In this document: one piece after another, positions 6,072-21,478 of the stretch | Position numbering within the stretch: the first letter of the stretch is position 1 | Layout of the letters: every line of letters begins with the position of its first letter | Assembly (NCBI GenBank): GCA_025964895.1 | Contig: JAOPXY010000024.1 | Coordinates: forward strand, 1 to 58,303 | Length of the DNA stretch: 58,303 nt | Origin: Aeromicrobium sp. | GTDB lineage: Bacteria; Actinomycetota; Actinomycetes; Propionibacteriales; Nocardioidaceae | Direction of reading: 5' to 3' | Notes under the pieces: model-generated | Seen by the model: the letters and a program-made list of their open reading frames with translations, nothing else | What the model was told of the DNA's origin: nothing | The model's database searches: none | Program-made: the position numbers and the translations under genes

Positions 6072-7433
6072 TCACGGCAGGTCCGCGAGCGTCTGCACGG
6101 CGTCGTCGCTCGTCGGGAGGGCTGACACGACGTCGACGACGCGGACGGTGTCGGCGTCGCCCACGAGCCGGCGCAACTTGGCGGTCACGTCGTCGGCGGA
6201 CAGGGGGAAGTGGTCGACGTCACCGACGGGATTGGGCAGGCACAGGCCCAGCGTCGTGCCGTCGCGCAGCTCGATCGTCACCTCGGCCGCGCGCTGCTGG
6301 GGGAGCAGGGCGTCGAGCATCGACGCGGCGCTCACCTCGACGCGGCCGCTGAGCTCCTGGGCGGCCGCGAACGCCGCGCCGGCCGGATCGAGCGCGGCGG
6401 CGTCGATCTCGCGGCTGACGATCGCCGCTGCGACCACGAAGGGCAACGAGAACATCGCGCCGAGCCGCGACGTGGGGTCGCGCCGGAACAGCGGTGACGC
6501 GAGGCTGTGGGTCCGCACGGTCACGTGGGCGATGTCGTCGGCACCGAACTCGTTCGACGCCTTGAGCGCCTGCACCGCGTCGATCGCGGCATGCGTGTAC
6601 GAGCACGACGCGTGCTGCTTGGTGTAGCCCTGCGTCGTGAGCCAGTCGTCCCCGAGCCCGTCGACCAGCAGCGCCGGCTCGAGGGAGCCGACCAGGTCGC
6701 CGAGGGAGTGCTGGGCGGCACCGATGTTGTCGACGAGGCCGGCCAGCGCGAGGCGCGCCGCGTCGAGGCCGGCCCGGTTGGCGCCGGCGATCCACAGGTT
6801 GCGGCTGAAGCTGCCACGCAGCACGACCTCCCACGGGGTCACGTGGACGAGGGCGGTGGACGCGTCGATCGCCGCGGCCGTCTGGGCGGTCGTCGCCCCG
6901 AGGAGGAGGGACGCGGCACAGGCCGCGCCCGTAGCCCCCCAGTGCCCATGGGTGTGCCAGCGGGGGTCGCGGGTCGTGGCACGGCCGAATCGCGCGGCCA
7001 CCTCGTACCCGACCGCGATCGCGTCGAGCAGCTCACGGCCGGAGACGGGACGGCCCGCGAGTCGCGCCGCGGCCACGGCGGCGAACACGACGTGCGCCGC
7101 GGGGTGGCCGGCCGCGTGCTTGTTGCCCTCGTCGAGCTCGAGGCAGCAGGCCGCGATCGCGTCGAGGTGCGCGACCGTCTCGGCCGAGCCGGTCAGCGCC
7201 GACCCCGTCGTGGCGTGGGGCCCGGCCACGGTGTGCCACGCGGCGGCGAGGGAGCGCAGCTCGGGTGTCCTGCTGCCGGCGAGGGTGACCCCGAGCAGGT
7301 CCGCGAGCATGACGCCGACCCGTTCCCGCACCGGTTCGGGCACCCCGTCGCGACGGCAGGCCGTCGCAAACGCGGCGAGGCGGTCGGTCGCTTCCCGTTG
7401 TTCCGCCAAACGAAACGCTAAATCGATGGTCAC
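6072..7433 (-). CDS. MmgE/PrpD family protein (first copy)
   Basis: A 453-residue member of the MmgE/PrpD family, which includes 2-methylcitrate dehydratase, cis-aconitate decarboxylase and iminodisuccinate epimerase. Family signatures visible include VMLADLLGVTLAGS near the N-terminus, CLELDEGNKHAAGHPAAHVV around residue 100, and the YTKQHASCSYTHAAIDAV segment. The start is uncertain. The GTG at 7433 gives a normal N-terminus, but an operator-like palindrome (7400-7416) then falls on codons 6-12; an in-frame TTG nine codons in is an alternative. The gene is divergent from the CoA-transferase operon and likely shares its control. The exact reaction is unknown. Confidence 0.85.
   Translation of the reverse strand: MTIDLAFRLAEQREATDRLAAFATACRRDGVPEPVRERVGVMLADLLGVTLAGSRTPELRSLAAAWHTVAGPHATTGSALTGSAETVAHLDAIAACCLELDEGNKHAAGHPAAHVVFAAVAAARLAGRPVSGRELLDAIAVGYEVAARFGRATTRDPRWHTHGHWGATGAACAASLLLGATTAQTAAAIDASTALVHVTPWEVVLRGSFSRNLWIAGANRAGLDAARLALAGLVDNIGAAQHSLGDLVGSLEPALLVDGLGDDWLTTQGYTKQHASCSYTHAAIDAVQALKASNEFGADDIAHVTVRTHSLASPLFRRDPTSRLGAMFSLPFVVAAAIVSREIDAAALDPAGAAFAAAQELSGRVEVSAASMLDALLPQQRAAEVTIELRDGTTLGLCLPNPVGDVDHFPLSADDVTAKLRRLVGDADTVRVVDVVSALPTSDDAVQTLADLP
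7400..7416. promoter_or_regulatory. Candidate IclR-type operator, site 1
   Basis: GTTCCGCCAAACGAAAC matches the GTTCCGCTnAGCGnAAC palindrome found upstream of the transporter operon. It lies at the very start of the leftward MmgE/PrpD gene, where binding could block transcription or initiation. The functional role is inferred from recurrence only. Confidence 0.4.
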
Positions 7434-7548
7434 GAGGGGGACGGTACGCGGGATCGCGCGACGTCGTCAACGACATTGAGCGGCGATCACCGGAATATCG
7501 AGGATCGCGGCACGACCGGGGGTTCCGCTCGGCGGGCAAGGCGATTAC

Positions 7549-7581
7549 AGTTGAGCGGAAACATGTTCCTCTGAGCGAAAC
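7549..7581. promoter_or_regulatory. Candidate IclR-type operator, site 2, before the CoA-transferase operon
   Basis: GTTCCTCTGAGCGAAAC at 7565-7581 differs at only 2 of 17 positions from the site at 14242-14258. A half site GAGCGGAAAC (7553-7562) sits immediately to its left, and a weaker copy GTTCCGCTCGGCGGGCA lies at 7522-7538. The site ends 10 bases before the GTG of the CoA-transferase gene, so binding there would be expected to repress or activate the promoter. Confidence 0.5.
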
Positions 7582-7591
7582 GGATTCATCT

Positions 7592-8791
7592 GTGGCCGAT
7601 CTGCCCATGCCATTGTCAGGCGTCCGCGTGCTCGACGTGTCCACGATCCTCGCGGGCCCGCTGTGCTGCCAGATCCTCGGTGACTTCGGCGCCGACGTGA
7701 TCAAGATCGAGCACCCTGTGCACGGGGACAACATGCGTGGCCACGGCGCCAGCAAGGACGGCGTCCCGCTGTGGTGGAAGGAGATCAGCCGCAACAAGCG
7801 CACCGTCGCCCTCGACCTCAAGGCTCCCGGCGGCGCCGAGGTGTTCCGTCGCCTGGCCGCCGAGGCCGACATCGTGGTCGAGAACTTCCGCCCCGGCACG
7901 CTCGAGCGCTGGGGCCTCGGTCCCGACGTCCTGTTCGCCGACAACCCCGGACTCGTCCTCGCCCGCCTAACCGGCTTCGGCCAGACGGGCCCCTACTCCT
8001 CCCGCGCCGGGTTCGGCACCCTCGCCGAGGCGATGAGCGGCTTCGCCGACGCCACGGGTGAAGCAGACGGCCCGCCGACCCTGCCCGCGTTCGGCCTGGC
8101 CGACAGCATCTGCGGCATCGCGGCCTCCTCGGCCGTCATGATGGCGCTGCGCCACCGCGACAGCACGGGCAAGGGACAGGTCGTCGACCTCAGCATCCTG
8201 GAGCCCATCATGACCGCGGTCGGCCCGGCGCCCACCTACTACCAGCAGCTCGGGGTGGTGGCGCAGCGTCACGGCAACCGGTCGACCAACAACGCACCCC
8301 GCAACACCTACCGCACCGCCGACGACGCCTGGGTCGCCGTGTCGACGAGCGCGCAGCGCATCGCCGAGCGCGTCCTGACGCTCGTGGGACACCCGGAGGT
8401 CATCGACGAGGACTGGTTCGCGACGGGCAGCGGGCGCGCCGAGCACGTCGAGCTGCTCGACGCGTACGTCGGCGACTGGATCGCCCAGCGCGACCGCTCC
8501 GAGGTCCTGCGGGTGTTCGAGGAGGCTGGTGCCGCGATCGCCCCCGTCTACGACGCCCGCGACATCACCCAGGACTCCCACATCAGGGAGACCCGGATGC
8601 TGCTCGAGGTCGACGACCCCGATGTCGGTCCGCTGCTTCAGCACAACGTCATGTGGCGTATGAGCGAGACGCCCGGCAGCATCCGCTTCACGGGCCGCGC
8701 GCTCGGACAGGACACGCACGAGGTGCTCGGCGAGTCGGGCTACACCCCCGACGAGATCGCCGAGCTGACGAGCGCGGGGGTCGTCCGATGA
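7592..8791 (+). CDS. CaiB/BaiF family (family III) CoA transferase
   Basis: A 399-residue enzyme that moves CoA from an acyl-CoA donor to a carboxylic acid through an enzyme-bound anhydride. The N-terminus reads PLSGVRVLDVSTILAGPLCCQILGDFGADVIKIE, a clear family signature. The catalytic Asp is probably D171 in LADSICG, matching the GDSNSG site of formyl-CoA transferase. Start is GTG 7592 or ATG 7607; neither has a strong ribosome site. The gene overlaps the cyclase gene by 4 bases. In this island it is the likely step that activates the imported acid as a CoA thioester; the substrate is unknown. Confidence 0.9.
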   Translation: MADLPMPLSGVRVLDVSTILAGPLCCQILGDFGADVIKIEHPVHGDNMRGHGASKDGVPLWWKEISRNKRTVALDLKAPGGAEVFRRLAAEADIVVENFRPGTLERWGLGPDVLFADNPGLVLARLTGFGQTGPYSSRAGFGTLAEAMSGFADATGEADGPPTLPAFGLADSICGIAASSAVMMALRHRDSTGKGQVVDLSILEPIMTAVGPAPTYYQQLGVVAQRHGNRSTNNAPRNTYRTADDAWVAVSTSAQRIAERVLTLVGHPEVIDEDWFATGSGRAEHVELLDAYVGDWIAQRDRSEVLRVFEEAGAAIAPVYDARDITQDSHIRETRMLLEVDDPDVGPLLQHNVMWRMSETPGSIRFTGRALGQDTHEVLGESGYTPDEIAELTSAGVVR

Positions 8792-9600
8792 GCGACGCCC
8801 TCCTCGACGCAGCCCTGGCCGGGCTCGACGTGATCGACCTGGGACGTCAGCTGCGCGTCGGCATGCCGCAGTCGCCCAACCACCCGCAGTTCTGGCATAC
8901 GCTGCCGCGCCGACACGGTGACATGACGCGCGCCGACGGGGGCAGTGCCGCGAACGACATGATCACGACCGGCACGCACGTCGGCACCCACATCGACGCC
9001 CTGGCGCACGTCTCGCACGAGGGCAAGATGTTCGGCGGAGTCGACGCGGCAGAGGCCGGCATCGGTGGCAAGTACGACGAGCTCGGCGTCCACACGATCG
9101 AGCCGATGATCCGTCGCGGCGTGCTGCTCGACATCCCGGGGCTCCTCGGCCTCGACCTCTGCGAGGGCGGCTACGAGATCACGGTCGCCGACCTCGAGGC
9201 CGCCGCCGAGCGCGAGGGCGTCGAGGTCCGGCAGGGCGACGTCGTCCTCATCCGCAGCGGCTGGGGGAGCCTGTTCTCCCAGGGCGCGCCCTACGTCGGC
9301 GGTCCCAGCGGCGTGCCCGGCATCGGTGAGGCCGGCGCCCAGTGGCTCGCCGAGCGCGGAGTCCACGCGGCCGGCGCTGACACGATCGCGTTCGAGCGGC
9401 TGGCGCCCGGCGGCGGCCACGCGCTGCTGCCGGCGCACCGCGTGCTGCTGGTCGAGCACGGCATCTACATCATCGAGGCACTCGATCTCGAGGAGCTCGC
9501 CGCCACGGGGCGTCACGAGTTCACCTTCGTGCTGATCCCGCTGAACATCTACGGCGCGACTGGCTCGCCGGTGCGTCCGCTGGCGGTGACGTCGGCATGA
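8788..9600 (+). CDS. Cyclase family (kynurenine-formamidase-like) metal hydrolase
   Basis: A 270-residue protein with the cyclase-family metal motif TGTHVGTHIDALAHV, in which the HxGTHxD histidines and Asp bind the divalent metal. Relatives include bacterial kynurenine formamidase, isatin hydrolase and polyketide cyclases, which mostly hydrolyse amide or lactam bonds. Its ATG overlaps the CoA-transferase stop (ATGA), which fixes the start; a longer in-frame reading from 8653 is rejected. The next gene also overlaps by 4 bases, so the three are translationally coupled. It may open a ring or remove an N-acyl group early in the pathway. Confidence 0.85.
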   Translation: MSDALLDAALAGLDVIDLGRQLRVGMPQSPNHPQFWHTLPRRHGDMTRADGGSAANDMITTGTHVGTHIDALAHVSHEGKMFGGVDAAEAGIGGKYDELGVHTIEPMIRRGVLLDIPGLLGLDLCEGGYEITVADLEAAAEREGVEVRQGDVVLIRSGWGSLFSQGAPYVGGPSGVPGIGEAGAQWLAERGVHAAGADTIAFERLAPGGGHALLPAHRVLLVEHGIYIIEALDLEELAATGRHEFTFVLIPLNIYGATGSPVRPLAVTSA

Positions 9601-11012
9601 GCGCACCCACGCTGGCCGAGCAGATCGCGGCCTTCGCGGACGGGACGTCGTACGACGACCTGCCCGCCGACGTCGTCAAGAGCGTCGGCATGCGCGTGCT
9701 CGACACCCTCGGCATCGCCGTCGCGGCCGCCGACCTCGACACCAGCCGGGCGGCCCGTTCCTGGGCGCGCGACCAGGCCCGCGGAGGTCCCGCGTCGGCG
9801 GTCGGCGTCGAGTCACCGCTGCCGGCGAACCTCGCGGCCTTCGTCAACGGGGTGCTGGCGCACTCCCTCGACTACGACGACACCCACCTGCCGTCGGTGC
9901 TGCATCCCAGTGCGACGGTCATCCCGTCGGCCCTCGCGGCGGCGCAGGCGCACGGCGCCGACGGACGCACGCTGGTCCGTGGCATCGCGATCGGCCTCGA
10001 GGTCTGCGTCCGGCTCGGCATGGCCGGCTACGACACCGAGAAGAAGAACTCGACGTTCTTCGAGAACGGCCAGCACGCGACGTCGATCTGCGGCGCGATG
10101 GGCGGCGCCGTCGCGGCGGCCGTCATCGGCGGGGCCTCGGCCCGGGCGATCACCGACACACTTGGCGTCGCGGCGTCCATGGCGTCGGGCATCATCGAGG
10201 CCAACCGCACGGGCGGAACCGTCAAGCGCATCCACTGCGGCTGGGCGGCGCACGCGGCGATCTCTGCCGCGAGCCTCGTCGAGTACGGCATCACGGGCCC
10301 GCCGACCGTGCTCGAAGGCCGCTTCGGCTTCTTCCAGTCGTGGCTGCACGGCACGTACGATCCGGCGCAGGTCAGCGACGGCCTGGGCACGACGTGGTCG
10401 GTCCCCGGCATCTTCGTCAAGCCGTACCCGGCCAACCACTTCACCCACGCGGCCGTCGACGCGGCGTCCGCGCTGCGGGTCGCCGGCATCACGCCGGACT
10501 CGATCCGTCGCCTCACGCTGGGCGTCCCCGCGCCGAATCTGCGCACGATCGGCGAGCCGATCGACGTCAAGCGGGCTCCCGAGACCGGCTACATGGCCCA
10601 GTTCAGCGGGCCGTACGCCGTCGCGGTGGGCCTGCTGGGCGGCGGCGGCCTGGGCGCCGGGCTGGAGGACTACACCGACGAGCTCGCGCACGAGCCGGCC
10701 CGCCGCGCCATCATGGCCGTGGTCGACGTCGTGGCGGACGACGAGTGCACCGAGATCTTCCCCCACCAGTTCCCCGCGGTCCTGACCGCCGAGCTGCACG
10801 ACGGACGCATGATCGTCGAGAAGGTGCTGACGACGCGCGGCGGCCCGCAGCGGCCGCTGTCGTTCGACGAGATCGCGGCGAAGTTCGCGACCAACGCGGG
10901 ACGTAACCTCGACGGGGCCGCCGTCTCCACCCTCGCCGCGATGTGCCGCGACCTCGCCGGCGCGCCCACGATGGACGCGCTCCTGGCGCCCTTGACCCGT
11001 ATCGACTCGTGA
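9597..11012 (+). CDS. MmgE/PrpD family protein (second copy)
   Basis: A 471-residue paralogue of the protein encoded at 6072-7433, with family motifs VLDTLGIAVAAADLDTS, AHSLDYDDTHLPSVLHPSA and FTHAAVDAASALRVAG. The DYDDTHLP stretch and the KPYPANHFTHAA segment correspond to active-site loops of methylcitrate dehydratase-type enzymes. Two MmgE/PrpD genes in one regulon suggest either a heteromeric enzyme or two successive steps, such as epimerisation followed by dehydration or decarboxylation. It overlaps the cyclase gene by 4 bases and is followed after 46 bases by the amidohydrolase. Confidence 0.87.
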   Translation: MSAPTLAEQIAAFADGTSYDDLPADVVKSVGMRVLDTLGIAVAAADLDTSRAARSWARDQARGGPASAVGVESPLPANLAAFVNGVLAHSLDYDDTHLPSVLHPSATVIPSALAAAQAHGADGRTLVRGIAIGLEVCVRLGMAGYDTEKKNSTFFENGQHATSICGAMGGAVAAAVIGGASARAITDTLGVAASMASGIIEANRTGGTVKRIHCGWAAHAAISAASLVEYGITGPPTVLEGRFGFFQSWLHGTYDPAQVSDGLGTTWSVPGIFVKPYPANHFTHAAVDAASALRVAGITPDSIRRLTLGVPAPNLRTIGEPIDVKRAPETGYMAQFSGPYAVAVGLLGGGGLGAGLEDYTDELAHEPARRAIMAVVDVVADDECTEIFPHQFPAVLTAELHDGRMIVEKVLTTRGGPQRPLSFDEIAAKFATNAGRNLDGAAVSTLAAMCRDLAGAPTMDALLAPLTRIDS

Positions 11013-11058
11013 CAACACCCCTCTGACCGAAGCCTGCCCCGAAAAGAAGGAATGACCC

Positions 11059-12522
11059 ATGTCTGAATTCGATCTGTTGATCACCAACGCCCAGGTCGTC
11101 CGCCCCGGCCACGACGCGCCGGAGCGCCTCGACGTCGCGGTCAAGGACGGACGCTTCGCCGCGTTCGAGGCCGACATCGACCCGGCGCGGGCCGGCGAGG
11201 TGCTCGATGCCGGCGGCAAGCACCTGTTCCCGGGTGCCGTCGACGTGCACCAGCACTGGGGCATCTACAACGAGCTGGGCGAGGACACCTCGACCGAGAG
11301 CCAGGCGTCGGCCCAGGGCGGCGTGACGTCGGGCATCACGTACATGCGCACGGGCGCCTACTACCTCAACCGATCGGGCCCGTACAAGGAGATCTTCCCC
11401 GACGTGCTCGCCGCAGCGGACGGCCGCGCGTACATCGACTACGGCTTCCACATCGCGCCGATCCTCGCCGAGCACATCGACGAGATCCCCTTCCTCATCG
11501 AGTCCGGCGTGCCGTCGTTCAAGGTCTTCATGTTCTACGGCAGCCACGGCCTGCACGGACGCTCGAGCGACCAGGGCTCGTTCCTGATGCTGCCCGAGGA
11601 CGAGTCGTACGACATCGCGCACTTCGAGTTCATCATGCGCGGACTGCAGAAGGCGCGAGAGGACGAGCGCTTCGCCGCCGACCGCGACCACATCTCCCTG
11701 TCGCTGCACTGCGAGACCGCCGAGATCATGCGGGCGTACACCAAGCTCGTCGAGGCCGACGGCACGCTGACGGGCCTCGAGGCGTACAGCGCGTCGCGGC
11801 CGCCGCACTCGGAGGGCCTGGCCATCACGATCGCGTCGTACCTCGCGCACGAGACCGAGCTGCCCAACATCAACCTGCTGCACCTGACGTCACGCAAGGC
11901 GATCGAGGCCGCGATGCTGATGCAGACGACGTTCCCGCACATCAACTTCCGCCGCGAGGTCACGGTCGGCCACCTGCTGGCCGACTTCCACACCGCGAAC
12001 CTGGGTGGCAAGGTCAACCCGCCACTGCGCTCGCGGGAGGACGTCGAGGCACTGTGGGATCACGTGCTGGCCGGCAACGTCTCCTGGGTCACGTCCGACC
12101 ACGCGTGCTGCAAGGACGAGACGAAGTTCGGCGAGCCGCGTGACGACGTGTTCGTCGCGAAGTCCGGCTTCGGCGGCACCGAGTACCTCCTGCCCGGCAT
12201 GATCTCCGAGGGACGCAAGCGTGGTCTGTCGTACAACGCCATCGCCGAGCTGACCGCCCGCAACCCCGCCGACCGCTTCGGCCTGGCGGGCAAGGGTGAC
12301 CTGCAGGTCGGCTTCGACGCCGACTTCAGCCTCGTCGACGACGACGTGCAGTACACCGTGCGCGCCGAGGACTCGGTGTCGACGCAGGAGTACACGCCGT
12401 TCGAGGGCTTCGAGCTGACCGCCAAGGTCACCGACACCTACCTGCGCGGCGAGGTCATCTGGGCCGACGGCGCGATCGTCGGCGAGCCGCGCGGCACGTT
12501 CCAGCGCCGCTCCGGCAGCTGA
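11059..12522 (+). CDS. Hydantoinase/dihydropyrimidinase-like amidohydrolase
   Basis: A 487-residue metal-dependent hydrolase of the cyclic-amidohydrolase family. Metal-site residues can be followed: H64 and H66 (DVHQHW), a probable carbamylated K155 (SFKVFMFY), H217 (LSLHCE), H275 (LHLTS) and D347 (TSDHACC). Length and motif order fit dihydropyrimidinase/hydantoinase, which open five- or six-membered cyclic amides. DVHQHW differs from the usual DPHTH, so the substrate is probably not classic hydantoin. An AGAAGGA ribosome site precedes the ATG. It ends the rightward operon at a strong hairpin. Confidence 0.85.
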   Translation: MSEFDLLITNAQVVRPGHDAPERLDVAVKDGRFAAFEADIDPARAGEVLDAGGKHLFPGAVDVHQHWGIYNELGEDTSTESQASAQGGVTSGITYMRTGAYYLNRSGPYKEIFPDVLAAADGRAYIDYGFHIAPILAEHIDEIPFLIESGVPSFKVFMFYGSHGLHGRSSDQGSFLMLPEDESYDIAHFEFIMRGLQKAREDERFAADRDHISLSLHCETAEIMRAYTKLVEADGTLTGLEAYSASRPPHSEGLAITIASYLAHETELPNINLLHLTSRKAIEAAMLMQTTFPHINFRREVTVGHLLADFHTANLGGKVNPPLRSREDVEALWDHVLAGNVSWVTSDHACCKDETKFGEPRDDVFVAKSGFGGTEYLLPGMISEGRKRGLSYNAIAELTARNPADRFGLAGKGDLQVGFDADFSLVDDDVQYTVRAEDSVSTQEYTPFEGFELTAKVTDTYLRGEVIWADGAIVGEPRGTFQRRSGS

Positions 12523-12546
12523 CGGAAGTCAGCAGCACCTGACGCC

Positions 12547-12577
12547 GGGCCGGCGCCGCGATCAGCGGCGCCGGCCC
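12547..12577. terminator. Bidirectional hairpin terminator
   Basis: A perfect 13-bp GC stem (12547-12559 with 12565-12577) and a 5-base loop GATCA sits between two converging genes. The loop contains the stop codon of the leftward lyase gene, so the stem covers its last codons. No T-run follows; GC-only hairpins of this kind are usual in actinobacteria. Confidence 0.7.
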
Positions 12578-13422
12578 AACGTCTCTCGTGCCTCGCGCAC
12601 GACGGCGGCGTCGATGAGCCGGCCGCGGGCGTCGAGCGTGATCCCGCCCCGCGAGCGGTCGAACCGGTCGAGCACCTCCTGTGCGGCCGTGAGACTCTCC
12701 GCGGACGGGCTGGCGACGGCGTGGATGACGTCGAGCTGCGCGGGGTGGATCGCGGTCCGCGACCGGAAGCCCAGGTCGAGCAGGTGCCGTGTGCTCTCCT
12801 CGAATGCCGTGAGATCGCGGAAGTCGGTCGACGTCGGCGCGACCGGCGCCGACAGGCCGGCGGCCGCGCAGTGCACGACGATCTGCATGCGCAGCCCGTC
12901 GATCGCGGCCACGGCGCGCGGCGACCGCGTCACGCGCAGGTCGCCGAGCAGGTCGACCTCGCCGACGCCCAGCGTCGTCAGGCGGGGGTGGGCGGTCACG
13001 ACGGCGAGATCGCGCAGAGCCTGCCCCGTCTCGACGAGCCCGATCACGTCGAGCCGTCCGTCGACACCCCGCTCGTCCTCGAGGGCGACGAGCAGCGGCG
13101 CGGCCGTGTCGAGGGCCTCGGGGGAGCACTTGGCCAGGAAGATTCCGGTGACCCCGGGACGGACCGCGGCGTCGAGGTCATCGGCAAGGAAGTCCGGTGA
13201 GACACGCACCCACAGCTCGGGGCCGGACGCCCGAGCGTGCCGTCCGTCCAGCCACGCGGCGAGTGCGGAGCGGGCGGCGGCCTTCTCGGGTACGGGCACG
13301 GCGTCCTCGAGGTCGATCACGAGGGCGTCGGCCGGTCCGGCCACTCCCTTCTCGAACAGGTCGGTGCGGTTGGCCGGGACGTACAGGAACGACCGGGGGA
13401 GCACCCGTGCCTCGGTCGTCAC
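12562..13422 (-). CDS. HpcH/HpaI-type CoA-ester lyase (citrate lyase beta-like)
   Basis: A 286-residue TIM-barrel lyase. Family motifs are RSFLYVPANRTDLFEKG at the N-terminus, VIDLEDAV (metal/CoA region), a catalytic-region GLVETG and a C-terminal RTAIHPAQ. Relatives (citrate lyase beta, malyl-CoA and citramalyl-CoA lyase) split a beta-hydroxyacyl-CoA into an acyl-CoA plus glyoxylate or pyruvate. The GTG start overlaps the stop of the IclR gene (GTGA), so the start is well set and the two are co-translated. In this island it is the likely carbon-carbon cleavage step after CoA activation. Confidence 0.87.
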   Translation of the reverse strand: MTTEARVLPRSFLYVPANRTDLFEKGVAGPADALVIDLEDAVPVPEKAAARSALAAWLDGRHARASGPELWVRVSPDFLADDLDAAVRPGVTGIFLAKCSPEALDTAAPLLVALEDERGVDGRLDVIGLVETGQALRDLAVVTAHPRLTTLGVGEVDLLGDLRVTRSPRAVAAIDGLRMQIVVHCAAAGLSAPVAPTSTDFRDLTAFEESTRHLLDLGFRSRTAIHPAQLDVIHAVASPSAESLTAAQEVLDRFDRSRGGITLDARGRLIDAAVVREARETLGRRR

Positions 13423-14216: not shown

Positions 14217-14241
14217 GGCGTTCCTCTCGACAGGGATCGGT

Positions 14242-14258
14242 GTTCCGCTTAGCGAAAC
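14242..14258. promoter_or_regulatory. Candidate IclR operator, site 3
   Basis: GTTCCGCTTAGCGAAAC is a nearly perfect 17-bp palindrome (only three of 17 positions differ from its reverse complement). It lies 25 bases upstream of the IclR start codon, consistent with autoregulation. Confidence 0.55.
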
Positions 14259-14350
14259 AGTAACATCTTTGTTTCGTGTGACGTACATCTAGCAATCACG
14301 GCTCGTACATGGAATAGTGGTCAAACGCCCCCCGACGAACTCGATATTAG

Positions 14351-14400
14351 AGTTCGCTCAGCGGAACATACGTCCTGAACAGCGTTCCTTTCAGTGGAAC
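14351..14400. promoter_or_regulatory. Candidate IclR operators, sites 4 and 5, before the importer operon
   Basis: Two further palindromes, AGTTCGCTCAGCGGAAC (14351-14367) and GTTCCTTTCAGTGGAAC (14384-14400), lie 33 bases apart start to start, about three helical turns. They are 42-91 bases upstream of the substrate-binding protein gene. The spacing would put two dimers on the same face of the DNA. Confidence 0.5.
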
Positions 14401-14441
14401 ACATCTCTGGTGCCCCCCGGCACGGAAGGCAGGTCCCTAGC

Positions 14442-15671
14442 ATGAAGAAGATCGCGAGCGTGATGACCGCACTGGTCGTCGCCGGAGGGCTGGCTGCTTG
14501 CAGCGGCAGCGACGGCGGAGGCTCCTCCGAGTCGGGCACCGTCACCATCGGCTCGATCCACCCGACGTCGGGCGCCCTCGCGGGCGTCGGCGGCCTGATG
14601 GACGACGGTGCCAAGCTGGCGGTCGACGACATCAACGCGGCCGGCGGCATCAAGGCGCTGGACGGCGCGAAGCTCAAGCTGTCGAGCGGTGACAGCCAGG
14701 GCAAGGCCGAGGTCGGCCAGAGCGAGGCGCAGCGGCTCATCGCCGACGGCGCCGTGGCACTCGTCGGCACCTACCAGAGCGACGTCACGCAGAACGTCGC
14801 CGCCGTCGCCGAGCGCGGACGCGTCCCGTTCGTCATCGACGTCGCGGTGGACGACAAGATCCTCCAGCAGGGCTACAAGTACGCCTTCCGCGTGCAGCCC
14901 GACGCGACGAGCATGGGCACGTCGGGTGCGCAGTCGCTGGCCAAGATCGGCCAGGACAGCGGCACCCCGATCACGTCCGTCGCCTATCTGCACATCGAGG
15001 GCGCCTTCGGCGACAGTGTGTTCAAGGCCTTCGAGGCCGAGGCCGCCGCCCAGGGCATCACGTCGGTCAAGGAGATCACCTACCCCGCGACGAACTTCTC
15101 CGATGCCACGACGCAGGTGCGCGAGGCGGCGGCCGCCAAGCCCGACGTCATCGTCGCCACCGGCTACTACCCCGACGGCGTGCTGATCGCGAAGGCCGTC
15201 TCGGAGCTCAAGCCCGACATCCAGGGCCTGTACGGCATCGCGAACGGCGCGTTCGACGACGGCTCGTTCCCGGCCGCGTCCGGCGAGTCGGGACAGAACG
15301 TCCTGAGCGCGAACTACCACTACGACGCGAACGACGAGCGCGTCGCCGACATCCGCACGCGCTTCGAGGCCAAGTACGGCAAGCCGATGGAGACCGCGTC
15401 GATCCTGTCGTACCAGGCCGTCGAGGTCGTCGCCGCCGGTCTTGAGAAGTCCGGCTCGGACGATCCTGAGAAGCTGCGTGAGGCCATCGCCGGCATCTCG
15501 ATCGACGACCCGCTGCTGGCGTTCGACGGCCCGATCACGTTCGACGAGCGCGGCCAGAATGAGAACGCGACGGTCATCGTCATGCAGGTCCAGGGCGACA
15601 ACGTCGAGCAGGTCTTCCCGCAGGAGTTCTCGACCAAGGACCTCGTCTTCCCGGCCACCGCGGCGCGATGA
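14442..15671 (+). CDS. HAAT-type ABC importer substrate-binding lipoprotein (LivK-like)
   Basis: A 409-residue type I periplasmic-binding-fold protein. MKKIASVMTALVVAGG is a signal peptide ending at the lipobox LAAC with Cys20 as the lipidated residue, so the protein is tethered to the outer face of the membrane. The mature part opens VTIGSIHPTSGALAGVG, as in branched-chain amino acid and organic-acid binding proteins. The longer in-frame reading from 14394 lacks this signal and is rejected. First gene of an eight-gene run with overlaps of 1-4 bases. The family also binds aromatic acids, amides and urea, so the ligand remains open. Confidence 0.9.
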   Translation: MKKIASVMTALVVAGGLAACSGSDGGGSSESGTVTIGSIHPTSGALAGVGGLMDDGAKLAVDDINAAGGIKALDGAKLKLSSGDSQGKAEVGQSEAQRLIADGAVALVGTYQSDVTQNVAAVAERGRVPFVIDVAVDDKILQQGYKYAFRVQPDATSMGTSGAQSLAKIGQDSGTPITSVAYLHIEGAFGDSVFKAFEAEAAAQGITSVKEITYPATNFSDATTQVREAAAAKPDVIVATGYYPDGVLIAKAVSELKPDIQGLYGIANGAFDDGSFPAASGESGQNVLSANYHYDANDERVADIRTRFEAKYGKPMETASILSYQAVEVVAAGLEKSGSDDPEKLREAIAGISIDDPLLAFDGPITFDERGQNENATVIVMQVQGDNVEQVFPQEFSTKDLVFPATAAR

Positions 15672-16657
15672 CGTCCACGACCACGCAGGGTGAAGGGCCG
15701 ACCCGGTTCGTCCGGGTCGGCCGGCACCCCACAACCGTCGTCTCGGTCACCGTCGTCCTCCTGCTCGCCGCGGTCTTCGCGGTGGGCGGGAAGGACAACG
15801 GCCTCGTCACGCAGTCGATCGTCACCGGTCTGCTGCTCGGCGGCGTGTACGCGCTCGTCTCGATCGGCCTGACGCTGATCTTCGGCGTGCTGGGCGTCGT
15901 CAACTTCGCCCAGGGCTCCATGCTGACGATGTCGATGTACGTCGTGTACGCCCTGGTGTCGGGCCCCGGCCTGCCGGTGTACCTGGCGACGCTGCTGGCG
16001 ATCCCGGTGATGTTCGCGTTCGGCATGTTCGTGCAGCACTTCCTGCTCAACCGGCTGACGTCGACCGGCAGCCACGAGGGACCGCTGCTGGTGACCCTCG
16101 GACTGCAGCTGCTCATCGCGAACGTGCTGCTGATGATCTTCAGCGGCCGGCCCAAGTCGGTCGGCACGCCGTTCGACGGATCCTTCGAGATGCTCGGCGC
16201 GATCGCGTCGTACTCGCGGGTCATCGCGTTCGCCGGCGCCGTGCTGGTCGGCATCGCCTTGACGCTGGTGCTGCGGCGCACGTCGCTGGGTCTGTCGATC
16301 CGCGCCGTCGCGGCCAACGCCCAGGGCGCCGCCCTGGTCGGCGTCAACGTGCGACGGGTCTACGCCCTCACGTTCGGCATCGGCGCGGCCAGCGTCGCGG
16401 TCGCCGGCGGCCTCATGACGCCATTTACGAGCCTCACGCCGTCCGTGGGGGAGCAGTTCACGATCCTCGCGTTCGTCATCGTCGTGCTCGGCGGCCTCGG
16501 CAGCGTGCTCGGCGCGACGATCGGCGGCCTGGTCATCGGGCTCGTCCAGACCGTCGGTGCCCTCTACCTCCCGGGCACGGGATCGCTGATCCTCGTGTTC
16601 GCGGTGTTCGTCATGGTGCTCTTCCTGCGCCCCCAAGGTCTGTACGGAGCCAAGTGA
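15668..16657 (+). CDS. ABC importer permease, LivH-like
   Basis: A 329-residue integral membrane permease of the branched-chain amino acid class. It has about eight hydrophobic segments. Typical motifs are LLGGVYALVSIGLTLIFGVLGVVNFAQG and the C-terminal LGGLGSVLGATIGGLVIG. It pairs with the LivM-like permease to form the channel. The first ~30 residues are polar and cytosolic. Start and stop overlap neighbours (ATGA with the binding protein). Confidence 0.92.
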   Translation: MTSTTTQGEGPTRFVRVGRHPTTVVSVTVVLLLAAVFAVGGKDNGLVTQSIVTGLLLGGVYALVSIGLTLIFGVLGVVNFAQGSMLTMSMYVVYALVSGPGLPVYLATLLAIPVMFAFGMFVQHFLLNRLTSTGSHEGPLLVTLGLQLLIANVLLMIFSGRPKSVGTPFDGSFEMLGAIASYSRVIAFAGAVLVGIALTLVLRRTSLGLSIRAVAANAQGAALVGVNVRRVYALTFGIGAASVAVAGGLMTPFTSLTPSVGEQFTILAFVIVVLGGLGSVLGATIGGLVIGLVQTVGALYLPGTGSLILVFAVFVMVLFLRPQGLYGAK

Positions 16658-17715
16658 TGACCGACACCACTGCCCGGCCCGCCGCGGCTCACGAGCTGCC
16701 GGCGGCCGACGACCCCCGCCTCAAGGACACGTGGGCGCGCCGTCAGCTGCTCGTGCTCGTCGCCGGCGTCGCGGTGCTCTCCACCCTTCCGCTGTTCCTC
16801 GGCGAGCAGGCGCAGAGCGTCGCGATCAGGACCCTGATCTTCGCGATCATGGCCGTCGGCTGGAACCTCATGAGCGGCTTCGGCGGCATGTTCAGCTTCG
16901 GCCACGCCGCGTTCTTTGGCATCGGCGCCTACACGGGCGCCTACCTGCTGGTCGACCACGGCATCTCGCCGTGGATCTCGATGGTCGTCGCCGCGGTGCT
17001 GTCGGCCGCGGTCGGTGTCGCGATCGCCTACCTGTGCCTGCGCTACAAGCTCGCCGGGTCGTACTTCGCCCTGGCGACGTTCGCGTTCGCGCAGATGTTC
17101 CTGCTGATCGTCCAGAACGTCGACGCCCTGCACAAGACCGAGGGCTTCAACGTCGAGATCCTGCCGAGCGACTCGTGGTCGATGCTGCAGTTCCAGCAGG
17201 GCGATCCGCTGTACTTCTGGATCCCGCTGGCGATCCTCGCCGCAGCTGTCCTCGTCTCGATCCTCTACGTCCGCTCGCGGGCCGGTCAGTACGCCCAGGC
17301 CGTGCGCGACGACGAGGTGGCGGCGTCGTCGCTGGGCATCAACACGATGCGCGCCCGTCTGATCGCCGTCGCGCTGAGCTGCGGTGTCACGGCGGTCGCC
17401 GGCGTCTACTACACGCAGTACTACTTCTTCGTGGGTCCCGAGCAGGCCTTCGGATCGGCCGTGTCGGTCGAGGCCATCGTGCCGGCCGTCATCGGAGGCA
17501 TCGGGACGATCTGGGGCCCCGTGATCGGCGCCATGGTCGTCGGTCCGCTGTCCGAGCTCGTCGCGACGGTGCTGCGCAACCCGCCCGGCTTCCTGTCGTT
17601 CCTGCAGGGCACGTCGGGCCTCGACGTCGCGGTGTACGCGACGCTGCTGATCGTCATCGTCATCGTGATGCCCAAGGGCATCTTCGGAACCATCAGGGAT
17701 CGGTGGCGCTCATGA
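16657..17715 (+). CDS. ABC importer permease, LivM-like
   Basis: A 352-residue second permease with family motifs AVGWNLMSGFGGMFSFGHAAFFGIGAY (partly quoted) and the C-terminal GGIGTIWGPVIGAMVVG. A ~30-residue polar N-terminus precedes the first membrane segment. The ATG overlaps the upstream stop as TGATG; a GTG three bases earlier (16654) is equally open. It forms the heterodimeric pore with the LivH-like protein. Confidence 0.92.
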   Translation: MTDTTARPAAAHELPAADDPRLKDTWARRQLLVLVAGVAVLSTLPLFLGEQAQSVAIRTLIFAIMAVGWNLMSGFGGMFSFGHAAFFGIGAYTGAYLLVDHGISPWISMVVAAVLSAAVGVAIAYLCLRYKLAGSYFALATFAFAQMFLLIVQNVDALHKTEGFNVEILPSDSWSMLQFQQGDPLYFWIPLAILAAAVLVSILYVRSRAGQYAQAVRDDEVAASSLGINTMRARLIAVALSCGVTAVAGVYYTQYYFFVGPEQAFGSAVSVEAIVPAVIGGIGTIWGPVIGAMVVGPLSELVATVLRNPPGFLSFLQGTSGLDVAVYATLLIVIVIVMPKGIFGTIRDRWRS

Positions 17716-18425
17716 GCCTTCTCCAGGTCGAAGGATTGACCAAGACATTCGCGGGACTCACGGCGGTCGACTCGGTGGACATCGCCGTCGCCGATCGGGT
17801 GTTCCTCGGCATCATCGGGCCCAACGGGGCCGGCAAGACCACCTTGTTCTCGCTCCTGGCCGGCAGCCAGCCGCCCACCGCGGGACGGGTCGTGTTCGAC
17901 GACGTCGACATCACCGGCTGGTCGGCGCAGAAGGTCGCGCGGGCCGGGCTGGTGCGCACGTTCCAGCTGATGCGTCCGTTCGAGTCGATGTCGGTGCTCG
18001 AGAACGTCACGATCGCCTCGCTGGCGCAGCGCTCCCGCAAGGACGCCCGCCGTCACGCGCTGGGCGTGCTCGAGCGCGTCCAGCTGGCGCAGTACGCGGG
18101 CACCAGCTCCGGCAGCCTGCCGACCGCGGGGCTCAAGCGGCTCGAGCTGGCCCGCGCGCTCGCGATGGAACCGCGCATGATCCTGCTCGACGAGGTGCTG
18201 GCCGGCCTCGTCCCCGCCGAGCGCGCACCCATGATCGAGCTCCTGCGCGAGCTGCACGGCGACGGGCTCACGGTGATGTTCGTCGAGCACATCATGGCCG
18301 CCGTGATGGCCCTGTCCGAACGGCTCGTCGTGATGCACGACGGGCGGGTGCTGACCCAGGGCGTCCCCGCCGAGGTCATCGCCGAACCCCAGGTCGTCGA
18401 GGCCTACCTCGGAGAGGACTACTGA
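17712..18425 (+). CDS. ABC importer ATPase, LivG-like
   Basis: A 237-residue nucleotide-binding subunit. Walker A is GPNGAGKTT, the Q-loop is VRTFQ, Walker B is MILLDEV and the switch His is in MFVEHIM. The signature region reads LPTAGLKRLELARAL instead of the usual LSxGQ; loss of the SGGQ-type core is odd, although GLKRLELARAL variants exist among LivG-type ATPases. It overlaps its neighbours by 4 and 1 bases. It would pair with the LivF-like subunit, whose signature is canonical. Confidence 0.9.
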   Translation: MSLLQVEGLTKTFAGLTAVDSVDIAVADRVFLGIIGPNGAGKTTLFSLLAGSQPPTAGRVVFDDVDITGWSAQKVARAGLVRTFQLMRPFESMSVLENVTIASLAQRSRKDARRHALGVLERVQLAQYAGTSSGSLPTAGLKRLELARALAMEPRMILLDEVLAGLVPAERAPMIELLRELHGDGLTVMFVEHIMAAVMALSERLVVMHDGRVLTQGVPAEVIAEPQVVEAYLGEDY

Positions 18426-19126
18426 TGCTCGAGCTGAAGAACCTGTGCGCCGGCTACCGCCGCCTCGAGATCCTGCACGACGTCAACCTGCGGGTCGGCG
18501 AGAAGGAGATCGTGTCGCTGATCGGTGCCAACGGCGCAGGCAAGACCACGACGCTGCGCGCCGTCGCCGGCATCATCAAGGCGACGGGCGGGGAGATCCT
18601 CCTGGCGGGCAGGCCCGTGCAGACCTACCGTCCCGACGAGATCGTGCGGGCCGGCATGCTGCACGTCGCGCAGGATCGCGCGCTGTTCGGCGACCTGGAC
18701 GTCATCGAGAACCTCGAGATGGGTGCGTACTCGCAGCCGCGGTCCAGCATCAAGGGCTCGCTGGACCAGGTCTTCGACCTGTTCCCGATCCTGGCCAGCC
18801 GCCGGTCGCAGAAGGCCAACACGATGTCGGGCGGCCAGCAGCAGATGCTGGCGATCGGCCGCGCCCTCATGGCGCGTCCGACGTGCCTCACGCTCGACGA
18901 GCCGTCGGTGGGCCTCGCGCCGAATCTCGCGGCCCAGGTGCTCGCGGCGATCCGGCAGATCCGCGACACCGGCGTGACCGTGCTAATCGTGGAGCAGAAC
19001 GCGTCGCAGGCCCTCGCGATCTCCGACCGCGCGTACGTCATCGAGAGCGGCGCGATCGTGCTGGAGGGATCTGGCACCGAGCTGGCAGACGACCCGCGCG
19101 TCCGCGCGGCGTACCTGGGCACCTGA
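18425..19126 (+). CDS. ABC importer ATPase, LivF-like
   Basis: A 233-residue nucleotide-binding subunit with Walker A GANGAGKTT, a full signature MSGGQQQMLAIGRAL and Walker B CLTLDEPSVGLAP. This is the standard LivF architecture (C-terminal EGSGTELADDPRVRAAYLG). It completes a five-gene HAAT importer. Its ATG overlaps the LivG stop by one base, and its own stop overlaps the next start by one base, so the following enzyme gene belongs to the same transcript. Confidence 0.92.
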   Translation: MLELKNLCAGYRRLEILHDVNLRVGEKEIVSLIGANGAGKTTTLRAVAGIIKATGGEILLAGRPVQTYRPDEIVRAGMLHVAQDRALFGDLDVIENLEMGAYSQPRSSIKGSLDQVFDLFPILASRRSQKANTMSGGQQQMLAIGRALMARPTCLTLDEPSVGLAPNLAAQVLAAIRQIRDTGVTVLIVEQNASQALAISDRAYVIESGAIVLEGSGTELADDPRVRAAYLGT

Positions 19127-19464
19127 TGGCCGAGTTCCTGGTCCACATCGAGATCGAGTGGCCGCCCGAGCGCTCCGAGCAGGAGCGTGAGGAGATCTTC
19201 GCCGCCGAGCTGGCACAGGGCCAGCGGCTCGCGGGCGCGGGACACCTGCGCCGGCTCTGGCGGATCCCGGGGCGGTGGGCGAACTGGAGCCTGTACGAGG
19301 TGCCCGACGCGACGGTGCTGCACGAGGCGCTGACGTCGTTGCCGCTGTACCCCTGGATGAGCATCGAGGTCCACGCCCTCGCCGAGCACCCCAACGACCC
19401 GCGGGCGCTTGACATCGAGGTTCCGGGCATTGAGCCGTCCGCGCCGCCCGAGGAGACACCATGA
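19126..19464 (+). CDS. Muconolactone delta-isomerase-like protein
   Basis: A 112-residue protein resembling muconolactone isomerase (CatC): MAEFLVHIEIEWPP start, EEIFAAELAQGQRLAGAGHLRRLWRIPGRWANWSLYEV core (partly quoted) and LPLYPWMSIEVHALAEHPNDP near the C-terminus. CatC is a ferredoxin-like decamer of about 96 residues that moves a double bond in a lactone. No other catechol-branch gene (catA, catB) is here. The protein therefore probably isomerises a different lactone or enol intermediate of the island pathway, or is a non-catalytic homologue. Translationally coupled on both sides. Confidence 0.75.
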   Translation: MAEFLVHIEIEWPPERSEQEREEIFAAELAQGQRLAGAGHLRRLWRIPGRWANWSLYEVPDATVLHEALTSLPLYPWMSIEVHALAEHPNDPRALDIEVPGIEPSAPPEETP

Positions 19465-20111
19465 GAATCTTGTCGTTCACGCCGATCGCGGTCGGCGAGC
19501 AGGAGCTCGCCCGCCGCCAGGCCCGTTACGCCGAGCACAGCCCCGCCGGCATCGAGGTCGAGCTCCGCGACATCGGCGCCGGGAGCGGCGACAGCGGTGC
19601 GCCCGCGGCGCTCGACACGCCTGAGGACGTCGCGGCGTCGGAGCGTGCCGTGCTGGCGGCGTTCGCGGCCGCCGACCCGACCGGCTTCGACGCCTTCCTG
19701 CCCGACTGCGTCCTCGATCCGGGCATCGACGACCAGGACGGCCTCGCCCGCCCGCTGTTGGGCATCGGCCGCCTGACCGCGACGTTCCTGGCGACCCAGG
19801 GCGCGCCGCTGCACGCCGTCGCGCGCAACATCGCGATCGCCGCGGAGCTGGACCGTCGCTTTGCGTCCTACGGCCTGGAGACGCCCGCGACCCGGGTGCT
19901 CGACCTCGGCTTCGACGTCATCGCCGACGACCGCGCGTGGAACGAGACCGTGGCGCGCAGCATCGCCGATCTCGACGACGGCTTCGTCTTCAACGCCTGC
20001 TCGGCCGTCGACGTCGCGCCCAGCACGGGCGGACCGGTCCTCGTCGACCCGACCGCGACGGCGCTGCGCCTGCTCGGCCTGAGGGCCTCGCTCGAGGGGA
20101 GCGCCGGGTGA
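19461..20111 (+). CDS. Asp/Glu/hydantoin racemase superfamily protein
   Basis: A 216-residue protein of the two-cysteine racemase superfamily, which includes hydantoin racemase, maleate cis-trans isomerase and arylmalonate decarboxylase. C83 (FLPDCVLDPG) and C180 (FNACSAVD) sit where the two catalytic Cys are expected, so a cofactor-free two-base proton transfer or cis-trans isomerisation is plausible. Its N-terminus MRILSFTPIAVGEQEL is typical. It overlaps both neighbours by 4 bases. With a hydantoinase-like enzyme in the same island, a hydantoin or carbamoyl-amide substrate is possible, but maleate-type chemistry cannot be excluded. Confidence 0.72.
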   Translation: MRILSFTPIAVGEQELARRQARYAEHSPAGIEVELRDIGAGSGDSGAPAALDTPEDVAASERAVLAAFAAADPTGFDAFLPDCVLDPGIDDQDGLARPLLGIGRLTATFLATQGAPLHAVARNIAIAAELDRRFASYGLETPATRVLDLGFDVIADDRAWNETVARSIADLDDGFVFNACSAVDVAPSTGGPVLVDPTATALRLLGLRASLEGSAG

Positions 20112-21478
20112 ACGCTGACGGCGGTCCCGATCTCGTCGTCGCCGGTGCCGGTGGCGGGCTCGCCGCGGCCCTGCGTGCCGCGGAGCTGGGGCTGGACGTC
20201 CTGGTCGTCGAGTCCAACGAGCACTTCGCGGTCGGCAACAACACCGCGATGTCGACCGCGATGATCCCGGGCGCTGGCAGCCGGTGGCAGCGCGAGGCCG
20301 CCGTCGAGGACTCGGCCGACACGTTCATCGCCGACATCATGGCCAAGACCCACGACGAGGCCGATGCCGCGCTCGCCGCGACCCTCGCCGGCGTGAGTGC
20401 CGAGCTGGTGGAGTGGCTCGGTGACGACGTCGGCATGCCCCTGTCGCTCGTCACAGACTTCGAGTACCCCGGCCACAGCCGGACGCGATGCCACACCGTG
20501 CCAGGACGGTCCGGCCGGGCGATGCTCGCCCACCTGGTGCGCGAGACCCGCCGCAACCCGCGCATCGACATCCTCGTGCCCGCCTCCCTCGACGACGTGC
20601 TGACCGACGACGCCGGCGTGCGCGCCGTCGTGGTCTCGACGCCGGGCGGTGGCACCGAGGAGATCCCCACGCGGGCGGTGCTGCTGGCCACCAACGGATT
20701 CGCGGCGAATCGCGAGCTCGTCGCCGCGCACGCACCCGAGATCGCCGATGCGGTCTACCACGGCAGCGAGGGATCGACGGGCGACGCGCTCGCGATCGGC
20801 ACCCGGCTGGGCGGTGCCACGGCTTACCTCGACGCGTACCAGGGGCACGCGGCGCTCGCGATGCCGGCCGCGACCCTGACCGGATGGGCGACCGTCATGC
20901 ACGGCGCCTTCCTGGTCGACCGGCACGGCCGCCGCTTCGGCGACGAGACGACCGGCTACTCCGAGTACGCCGCCGAGGTGCTGAAGCATGCGGGCGGCCA
21001 GGCCTGGATCATCCTCGACGCCCGCATCGACGAGGCGTGCTCGGTGTTCCAGGACTACCTCGACACGCGCGAGTCCGGTGCGGTCAAGTGGGCCGGCACG
21101 GCACGCGAGCTCGCCCAGGACGTCGGCATTGACCCCGAGGGTCTGGAGGACACGGTGCGTCGGACTCAGCTGTTCGCGCGCGGCGAGTTCGGCGACGAGC
21201 TCGGCCGGACGTTTTGGGAGCAGGAGCTGACCGGACGCCTCGCGGCCGTCGCCGTGCGCCCCGCGCTGTTCCACACCCAGGGTGGTCTCCGCGTCGACGA
21301 GCACGCGCGCGTCGTCGACGAGCACGCGCAGCCGATCACGGGCCTGTACGCGTCCGGCGGCGCGGCGATGGGCATCTCGGGCCACGGCGCGGGCGGCTAT
21401 CTCGCCGGCAACGGCCTCCTCCCCGCGCTCGGGCTCGCATACCTCGCGGCCAATCACGTGGCCTCGTCCGCCCGCTGA
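20108..21478 (+). CDS. FAD-dependent oxidoreductase (fumarate reductase/3-ketosteroid dehydrogenase-like)
   Basis: A 456-residue flavoprotein. The FAD-binding motif is LVVAGAGGGLAAALRAAELG at the N-terminus. Later motifs include the family LLATNGFAANREL and the C-terminal GLYASGGAAMGISGHGAGGYLAGNGLLPALGLAYLAA region (partly quoted), as in soluble fumarate-reductase and 3-ketosteroid dehydrogenase-type flavoproteins. These enzymes add or remove hydrogen across a carbon-carbon bond next to a carbonyl. GTG start overlaps the racemase stop by 4 bases. Last gene of the importer operon. Confidence 0.85.
   Translation: MNADGGPDLVVAGAGGGLAAALRAAELGLDVLVVESNEHFAVGNNTAMSTAMIPGAGSRWQREAAVEDSADTFIADIMAKTHDEADAALAATLAGVSAELVEWLGDDVGMPLSLVTDFEYPGHSRTRCHTVPGRSGRAMLAHLVRETRRNPRIDILVPASLDDVLTDDAGVRAVVVSTPGGGTEEIPTRAVLLATNGFAANRELVAAHAPEIADAVYHGSEGSTGDALAIGTRLGGATAYLDAYQGHAALAMPAATLTGWATVMHGAFLVDRHGRRFGDETTGYSEYAAEVLKHAGGQAWIILDARIDEACSVFQDYLDTRESGAVKWAGTARELAQDVGIDPEGLEDTVRRTQLFARGEFGDELGRTFWEQELTGRLAAVAVRPALFHTQGGLRVDEHARVVDEHAQPITGLYASGGAAMGISGHGAGGYLAGNGLLPALGLAYLAANHVASSAR

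Follow-up and report, generated by a model that had tools for sequence, protein, structure and literature searches.

Among described systems, the closest in logic to the locus presented here is the itaconate/methylsuccinate cluster PA0878–PA0883 (ich, mcd, mmgE, ict, ccl), where, in the excerpted text of two published accounts, the MmgE/PrpD protein is a (S)-(R)-methylsuccinate isomerase working on the free acid and not on the CoA ester (PMC9875883, PMC12290011). As far as the excerpts of the second of these, a 2025 survey, extend, such isomerases are almost exclusively found in Pseudomonadota and MmgE/PrpD homologues are mostly uncharacterised (PMC12290011). Here we present a catabolic island at positions 6072–21478 of contig JAOPXY010000024.1 of Aeromicrobium sp. 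(assembly GCA_025964895.1); the whole contig, 58,303 nt long, is called the window below. Cluster and island both have a family III CoA transferase, a CitE-type lyase and an MmgE/PrpD protein, but the island is without the MaoC hydratase (Ich) and the acyl-CoA dehydrogenase (Mcd), and carries in addition a second MmgE/PrpD protein, two C–N hydrolases, a racemase, a muconolactone-isomerase-like protein (MIase), an FAD flavoprotein, a HAAT importer, and an IclR operator.

A further point of comparison is the degradation of cyclic imides by HxnM/HxnN in Aspergillus nidulans, in which the imide is opened, the half-amide hydrolysed and the acid catabolised, a logic like the one we propose for the island, although the described parts of that route include no CoA transferase or lyase, unlike the island (PMC9304392). 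Published abstracts count imidase among the cyclic amidohydrolases. Allantoin and hydantoin utilisation likewise pairs an allantoin-racemase fold with an allantoinase-like binuclear cyclic amidase, whereas in the island no allantoate or carbamoyl hydrolase domain was found, and a CoA transferase and a lyase are present instead. The island FAD protein is of the same family as TcuA and the fumarate-reductase-like flavoproteins, acting on succinate-type acids, but it scores below their NCBIfam cut-offs (125.8 bits against 369 for TcuA, 203.9 against 285.45 for flavocytochrome c). Searches of open-licence PubMed Central for the gene set of the island, or for strain DND3, brought up no described pathway of this kind, and an earlier reading of this DNA made from the sequence alone (the sequence-only reading) knew of none either. 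The gene set is undescribed in the literature searched, and represents a tractable orphan pathway and not a new kind of system.

Genes were called by codon-position GC and open reading frame (ORF) calling and domains by Pfam and NCBIfam profile searches, which gave 15 adjacent genes (Table 1) in a draft genome of 3.44 Mb (218 contigs, 95% complete), of which the window is one entire contig. They are arranged as two divergent pairs, MmgE1 with CoAT-Cyc-MmgE2-Amido and HpcH-IclR with importer-MIase-AGrac-FAD, and not as the two divergent operons of the sequence-only reading. Every component that it had named is present by gene calls, Pfam or, for AGrac, the predicted fold; what it had left out is the IclR regulator. 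Its logic of a CoA transferase plus a lyase is borne out by the family III and CitE-type enzymes, as is its remark on the lack of an enoyl-CoA hydratase, since Pfam scans of the 15 genes matched no MaoC or enoyl-CoA hydratase domain, and no Mcd-type acyl-CoA dehydrogenase domain. We tentatively propose that the island is one IclR-controlled regulon for the breakdown of a chiral cyclic imide or ureide derived from a substituted 1,4-dicarboxylic acid (e.g., a substituted succinate), the ring being opened prior to CoA-dependent cleavage, a reading that we consider plausible if short of probable.

The island, or large parts of it, recurs as one co-conserved unit in several actinobacterial families. 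Of 385 confirmed Amido relatives, the comparison took in the best 80 (loci L010–L089), so Amido is present in 80/80 by construction and more distant clusters are unrepresented; presence was scored with tblastn thresholds of our own setting within 10-kb flanks, genes farther out being missed, and 23 of the 80 loci were too short for the counts over loci >20 kb. ORF calls in the relatives are mechanical, some of them on the wrong strand. Among the 57 loci >20 kb, CoAT was found in 57, MmgE2 in 50, HpcH in 43, Cyc in 42 and IclR in 39, followed by FAD (30), AGrac (26), MmgE1 (20), SBP (19), and MIase (3). Gene order is kept in near relatives (L010, L019, L024, L025, L027, and L031), and most of the content appears in other orders in Rhodococcus, Nocardia, Cryobacterium, Arthrobacter, and Micrococcus. 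Two genomes outside the class, members of a single family, carry all 15 genes in rearranged order (L102; L101 and L115), while in a third (L100) the stretch covered has no MIase, MmgE2, or HpcH. Across 296 genomes sampled from the phylum, own genome included, AGrac is carried by five and Amido by 13 at the limits applied, and every AGrac carrier has Amido, a co-occurrence expected about twice in a million if the two were independent and kinship is ignored. Only 3/36 other genomes of the genus have MmgE2 (E ≤1e-60), so that the island is patchy within the genus. The closest named relative of Amido is that of Aeromicrobium sp. Root472D3 (93%); the recurrence of the island in named isolates such as this one led us to reject an assembly artefact.

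Comparison of the two divergent promoters gave a common near-palindrome, GTTCCGCTNAGCGGAAC. Allowing up to three mismatches, the window contains five matches, all at these two promoters, against 0.37 expected, and five matches were reached in 0/100 shuffles. In the own genome only two sites have up to two mismatches, both in the island; at three mismatches there are three more in the island and 15 elsewhere, a reversed control pattern giving 10. The 80 related loci contain 79 sites with up to two mismatches, of which 67, in 42 loci, fall in the upstream zones of island genes; a control set of 20 permuted palindromes averaged 0.05 inside such zones and 0.6 outside. The operator was present in 39/44 related loci having SBP, AGrac, FAD, or MmgE1 and in 3/36 having none of them. 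The operator motif published for IclR group 1 is GKTYCRYW3-4RYGRAMC (PMC8222616), and GTTCCGCTNAGCGGAAC fits it apart from a free centre base. The start of IclR was placed at 14216 because the operator sits just upstream. By sequence, the two halves of the island share a predicted IclR-type operator and would act as one unit. The sequence-only reading had looked to co-occurrence across genomes to check its proposal, and to separate halves or a known home for the homologues to overturn it: the set recurs, rearranged, even outside the class, many genomes keep both halves, the predicted operator joins them, and against the characterised families tested the homologues fall short of the cut-offs.

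A first indication of the chemistry comes from the MmgE/PrpD proteins, both of which exceed the Pfam cut-offs for their N- and C-terminal domains. In the excerpted text of the 2025 survey, characterised members share a 1,4-dicarboxylate substrate held by six residues, which in PA0881 are His88, Glu91, His102, His152, Lys202, and Lys266 (PMC12290011). All six positions are kept in MmgE2 (H89 D92 H103 H160 K210 K275) in 84/84 rows, seven of 91 collected sequences having been dropped as short or <45% identical; the residues were mapped by motif spacing and alignments in which PA0881 itself does not figure. Asp92 stands where PA0881 has Glu, the same as D88 of iminodisuccinate epimerase. Having kept the six residues, MmgE2 is expected to use a 1,4-dicarboxylate in its free form. 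In the alignment it has Pro, Asn, and Thr where the cis-aconitate decarboxylase chain has Arg, His, and Tyr, which we take to be residues 273, 277, and 318 in human numbering and specific to that enzyme. Cis-aconitate decarboxylase, although MmgE2 may yet prove to be one, was dropped as the first guess, the residues differing beyond the shared site. MmgE1 retains four of the six residues (E99 H110 H160 K272) in 29/29 sequences (29 of 37 collected), and its AF2 fold most resembles iminodisuccinate epimerase (TM 0.85), with cis-aconitate decarboxylase second and methylcitrate dehydratase third. It may act on an altered dicarboxylate, such as a half-amide. The alignments were made with 27, 23, 24, and 14 sequences selected out of 38, 37, 91, and 97, respectively, counting that of the window, and residue counts include overlapping stretches of one genome (L102/L114, L101/L115).

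Amido is matched best by allantoinase models (allantoinase 231.4 of 631 bits needed; AllB TIGR03178 226.1 of 357.85), and its residues H64, H66, K155, H217, H275, and D347, presumably the binuclear metal ligands with a carboxylated Lys, are in place in 91/91 rows. Mean column identity reaches 78% (14 sequences chosen from 97), and this speaks for a single, strictly defined substrate. Elsewhere the own genome encodes a separate AllB, which with 539 bits exceeds the cut-off. An ordinary allantoin operon was rejected, given this true AllB and the scores of Amido below the allantoinase cut-offs. In Cyc the PF04199 metal motif HxGTHxDAxxH is found in 72/76 homologues >200 aa, and isatin hydrolase and kynurenine formamidase are among the PDB relatives of the protein. 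AGrac scores 27.1 with the Pfam Asp_Glu_race model, under the cut-off of 31, and a search for a close PDB relative by sequence found none; the family is confirmed by the predicted fold, closest to allantoin racemase (Z 21.2, rmsd 2.6, 205 aligned, and 20.5), and further away to hydantoin racemase (18.2), a fungal family member (16.7), and maleate isomerase (14.7). Its C83 and C180, which we assume to be catalytic, are invariant in 36/36 homologues.

CoAT is below the cut-off in all seven NCBIfam models listed (formyl-CoA transferase 236.5 of 442 needed, succinate-glutarate 230.8 of 750, mesaconate 204.7 of 700). The best NCBIfam model for HpcH is RipC_Ccl, with 121.7 bits of 375 needed, and its PDB relatives are 3qll and malyl-CoA lyases; by sequence it is nearest to Ccl and malyl-CoA lyases. 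On the uptake side, the PDB relatives of SBP are Leu/Ile/Val-binding proteins, which gave no lead to the substrate.

A racemase, a C–N ring opener, and a 1,4-dicarboxylate site together point to a chiral ring in which an acidic carbon adjoins a carbonyl, as in an imide of the substituted succinimide type or an acidic hydantoin, and the dicarboxylate residues of MmgE2 with the allantoin-racemase-like AGrac favour a substituted succinate in the form of its cyclic imide or ureide. This narrows the imported cyclic amide or amino-substituted dicarboxylate of the sequence-only reading; the second of these is possible, given the predicted fold of MmgE1 closest to iminodisuccinate epimerase. Going by family chemistry, the HAAT importer would take up such a cyclic compound, AGrac would racemise the carbon adjoining a ring carbonyl, Amido would hydrolyse a ring C–N bond, and Cyc would strip the remaining amide. 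The freed substituted succinate would be dehydrogenated by the FAD protein to a fumarate or maleate, whose double bond or stereocentre MIase or MmgE1 might adjust; MmgE2 would hydrate this fumarate/maleate-type acid, CoAT would load CoA, and HpcH would cleave the resulting 3-hydroxyacyl-CoA, releasing an acyl-CoA together with pyruvate or some other 2-oxo acid. The sequence given here for the middle steps is conjectural. What was an undescribed island is now a defined regulon, for which an operator is predicted, the gene set recurs, and the chemistry has been narrowed, bringing within reach functions for several orphan groups (two MmgE/PrpD clades, a PF04199 hydrolase, a highly conserved dihydroorotase-like protein, and a short allantoin-racemase-like protein).

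As for actual substrates, substituted succinimides and maleimides from tetrapyrroles (haem, bilins, chlorophyll), for example hematinic acid, would be a long shot suggested by analogy. Ring opening of hematinic acid gives HOOC-CH2CH2-C(COOH)=C(CH3)-COOH, a one-carbon homologue of the product of PrpD, 2-methyl-cis-aconitate. If MmgE2 carried out a PrpD-type hydration, loading with CoA and citramalyl-CoA-type cleavage would then yield pyruvate and glutaryl-CoA. We know of no bacterial route for pyrrole-derived imide fragments, and this one, if true, might be the first.

Several observations weigh against the proposed imide/ureide regulon. Enzymes of PF04199 and of the hydantoinase fold have substrates other than imides as well, and HxnM, the imidase of the one complete imide pathway encountered in the literature, is related to a P. 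putida imidase and to PuuE/PgdA-type proteins and is unrelated to Amido (PMC9304392). MmgE1 has Cys (18) or Val (11) in place of a dicarboxylate His and Arg (29) in place of Lys. MIase occurs in only 6/80 related loci, L077 and L083 showed no Cyc within 10 kb (in L103, of a Rhodococcus-type arrangement, it lies at 18.1 kb), and Amido is without a nearby CoAT in L110 and L112. The importer also differs among relatives (HAAT, MFS, NMT1/THI5-binding-protein type, Opp, or sugar type), and the substrate may therefore not be the same in all of them; relatives with other importers or with arylmalonate-decarboxylase-type proteins may use related substrates. With regard to regulation, the GTTCCGCTNAGCGGAAC consensus was derived from the window's own promoters, and for this reason the other tests carry more weight. 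The operator is absent from 33/36 core-only loci (those without SBP, AGrac, FAD, and MmgE1); it tracks the full set, which makes it probable that core-only clusters are controlled differently.

Of the other explanations, the one that survives best is a hydantoin/N-carbamoyl route, in which an acidic 5-substituted hydantoin (e.g., hydantoin-5-acetate) would be racemised and opened to an N-carbamoyl-aspartate-like acid, epimerised by MmgE1, with the CoA steps taking the nitrogen-free remainder. The racemase folds nearest to AGrac (Z 21.2 for allantoin, 18.2 for hydantoin racemase), the allantoinase models that best match Amido, and the iminodisuccinate-epimerase-like fold of MmgE1 all agree with it. 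Possible carbamoylase types are also found in relatives, namely the M20 peptidase family in six Micromonospora/Blastococcus loci, the nitrilase family beside Amido (L111), and the isochorismatase family (L091), but these three domains are absent from the 15 island genes, and a CoA transferase and a lyase would be needless for aspartate-like products. We regard this route as unlikely, while a real contender. Somewhat less credible is a route for ring-cleavage products of N-heteroaromatics (pyridine or pyrimidine type), near the wording of the sequence-only reading, with the amide hydrolases acting on linear enamides. Some relatives do add arylmalonate-decarboxylase/EutA-type proteins, alpha/beta hydrolases, SDRs, or NMT1/THI5-type binding proteins; yet no oxygenase or heteroaromatic hydroxylase domain is found among the 15 genes, and the pair of racemase and cyclic amidase is better explained by a saturated chiral ring.

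The itaconate/methylsuccinate comparison could also be taken literally, the island being a variant of the ict-ich-ccl-mcd-mmgE cluster with accessory hydrolases, and this we judge quite doubtful, below the two preceding routes. The family III CoA transferase, CitE-type lyase, and MmgE/PrpD protein in common argue for it, together with an island relative on Rhodococcus gordoniae plasmid pDND3A that lies beside a RipB/RipC-like cluster, whose acyl-CoA dehydrogenase type appears near the core, at 69–70% identity, in L030, L046, L048, and L050. Against it, the island has neither an Ich (MaoC) nor an Mcd domain, its lyase reaches only 121.7 of 375 bits, and the own genome, a 95% complete draft, has no RipB or RipC over cut-off, the best RipB_Ich match (76.5 of 340) lying on another contig. 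A plain itaconate cluster was rejected on the lack of Ich and Mcd domains and on the distance of HpcH from the RipC_Ccl cut-off. Lastly, two unrelated neighbouring pathways are very improbable, for although 15/57 loci keep CoAT-Cyc-MmgE2-Amido-HpcH (with or without IclR) and no importer, AGrac, FAD, or MmgE1, the operator is mostly missing from core-only loci, and L077 has importer-MmgE1-AGrac-FAD-Amido-CoAT and no Cyc, MmgE2, or HpcH, both halves have the operator in common, the full set has been reassembled repeatedly, and Amido and CoAT occur in both sub-modules.

Table 1. Genes and candidate operator sites of the Aeromicrobium sp. island, by position in the window.
Feature	Position	Strand	Evidence or remark
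MmgE1, MmgE/PrpD family protein	6072..7433	-	Pfam N/C domains 87.7/89.8 bits; start codon uncertain
Operator-like site	7400..7416		3 mismatches; overlaps first codons called for MmgE1
Operator before CoAT	7565..7581		2 mismatches
CoAT, family III (CaiB/BaiF) CoA transferase	7592..8791	+	Pfam CoA_transf_3 392.8 bits
Cyc, PF04199 metal-dependent C-N hydrolase	8788..9600	+	Pfam Cyclase 105.1 bits
MmgE2, MmgE/PrpD protein, predicted hydratase/dehydratase or isomerase of a substituted 1,4-dicarboxylate	9597..11012	+	Pfam 189.8/104 bits
Amido, hydantoinase/allantoinase-like cyclic amidase	11059..12522	+	Pfam amidohydrolase 37.3/33.4; best NCBIfam allantoinase 231.4
HpcH, CitE-type CoA-ester lyase	12562..13425	-	HpcH_HpaI PF03328 84.2 bits
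IclR-family regulator	13419..14216	-	Pfam IclR_C 118.4, HTH_IclR 44.4 bits
Operator before IclR	14242..14258		1 mismatch
Operator-like site between IclR and SBP	14351..14367		3 mismatches
Operator-like site before SBP	14384..14400		3 mismatches
SBP, HAAT substrate-binding protein	14442..15671	+	Peripla_BP_6 182.2 bits
HAAT permease B	15668..16657	+	BPD_transp_2 119.8 bits
HAAT permease C	16657..17715	+	BPD_transp_2 147.6 bits
HAAT ATPase, LivG-like	17712..18425	+	ABC_tran 74.5 bits; best NCBIfam LivG
HAAT ATPase, LivF-like	18425..19126	+	ABC_tran 97.6 bits; best NCBIfam LivF
MIase, muconolactone-delta-isomerase-like protein	19126..19464	+	PF02426 98.1 bits; NCBIfam 79.1 against 130.6 needed
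AGrac, two-cysteine allantoin/hydantoin-racemase-like protein	19461..20111	+	Asp_Glu_race 27.1; AF2 pLDDT 94.6
FAD, fumarate-reductase/tricarballylate-dehydrogenase-like flavoprotein	20108..21478	+	FAD_binding_2 170.6 bits

The island is followed by a gene for a fused Ada/AraC/AlkA DNA-repair protein (21574–23052), outside the island and present in 38/41 genomes of the genus (own included). On the other side adjoin tandem GAF-ANTAR genes (4652–6058), the second with relatives in 12/41 genus genomes (own included; E ≤1e-20). Neither AlkA nor the three genes preceding 6072 (the GAF-ANTAR pair and an alpha/beta hydrolase) had a match in L010–L089 at the limits applied, and thus the flanking genes do not travel with the island there. 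The same AlkA gene lies downstream of the island in the window and in genome G011, with different left flanks; none of the left-flank genes of the window was found near AlkA in five other genus genomes (four without MmgE2, plus G353), hence an empty insertion site is not established.

Some of the relatives deserve mention in their own right. On pDND3A (L090, 15454–26972) the island relative stands beside an amidase and two hydantoinase/oxoprolinase genes (HyuA/HyuB), and the adjoining cluster, whose RipB- and RipC-like genes reach 148.5 of 340 and 175.8 of 375 bits and which also has an MmgE/PrpD protein, a CoA transferase, and an acyl-CoA dehydrogenase, looks by sequence like an actinobacterial itaconate/methylsuccinate cluster. 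Core-only CoAT-Cyc-MmgE2-Amido(-HpcH) clusters may represent a second regulon or pathway. Core variants in L041, L052, L067, and L084 have one arylmalonate-decarboxylase/EutA-like protein (by profile test in the first two, by clustering in the others), and some of them add an alpha/beta hydrolase or an Opp/NMT1-type importer. A thiolase is seen in some Nocardioides loci. In L026 (Arthrobacter sp. Hiyo4), Amido, CoAT, and Cyc are whole, while two frames were called for each of MmgE1, AGrac, FAD, and MmgE2, a splitting that may reflect decay of the pathway or sequencing indels. The nitrilase-family gene of L111 (10855–11829) separates Amido from CoAT, and genes for an aldehyde dehydrogenase and an NMT1/THI5-type binding protein are close by. 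Finally, L106 has class I fumarase-like alpha and beta subunits (1101–2561) beside a CoA transferase, near Amido-FAD-CoAT-HpcH-Cyc-MmgE2, and this pair is possibly a mesaconase-type hydratase.

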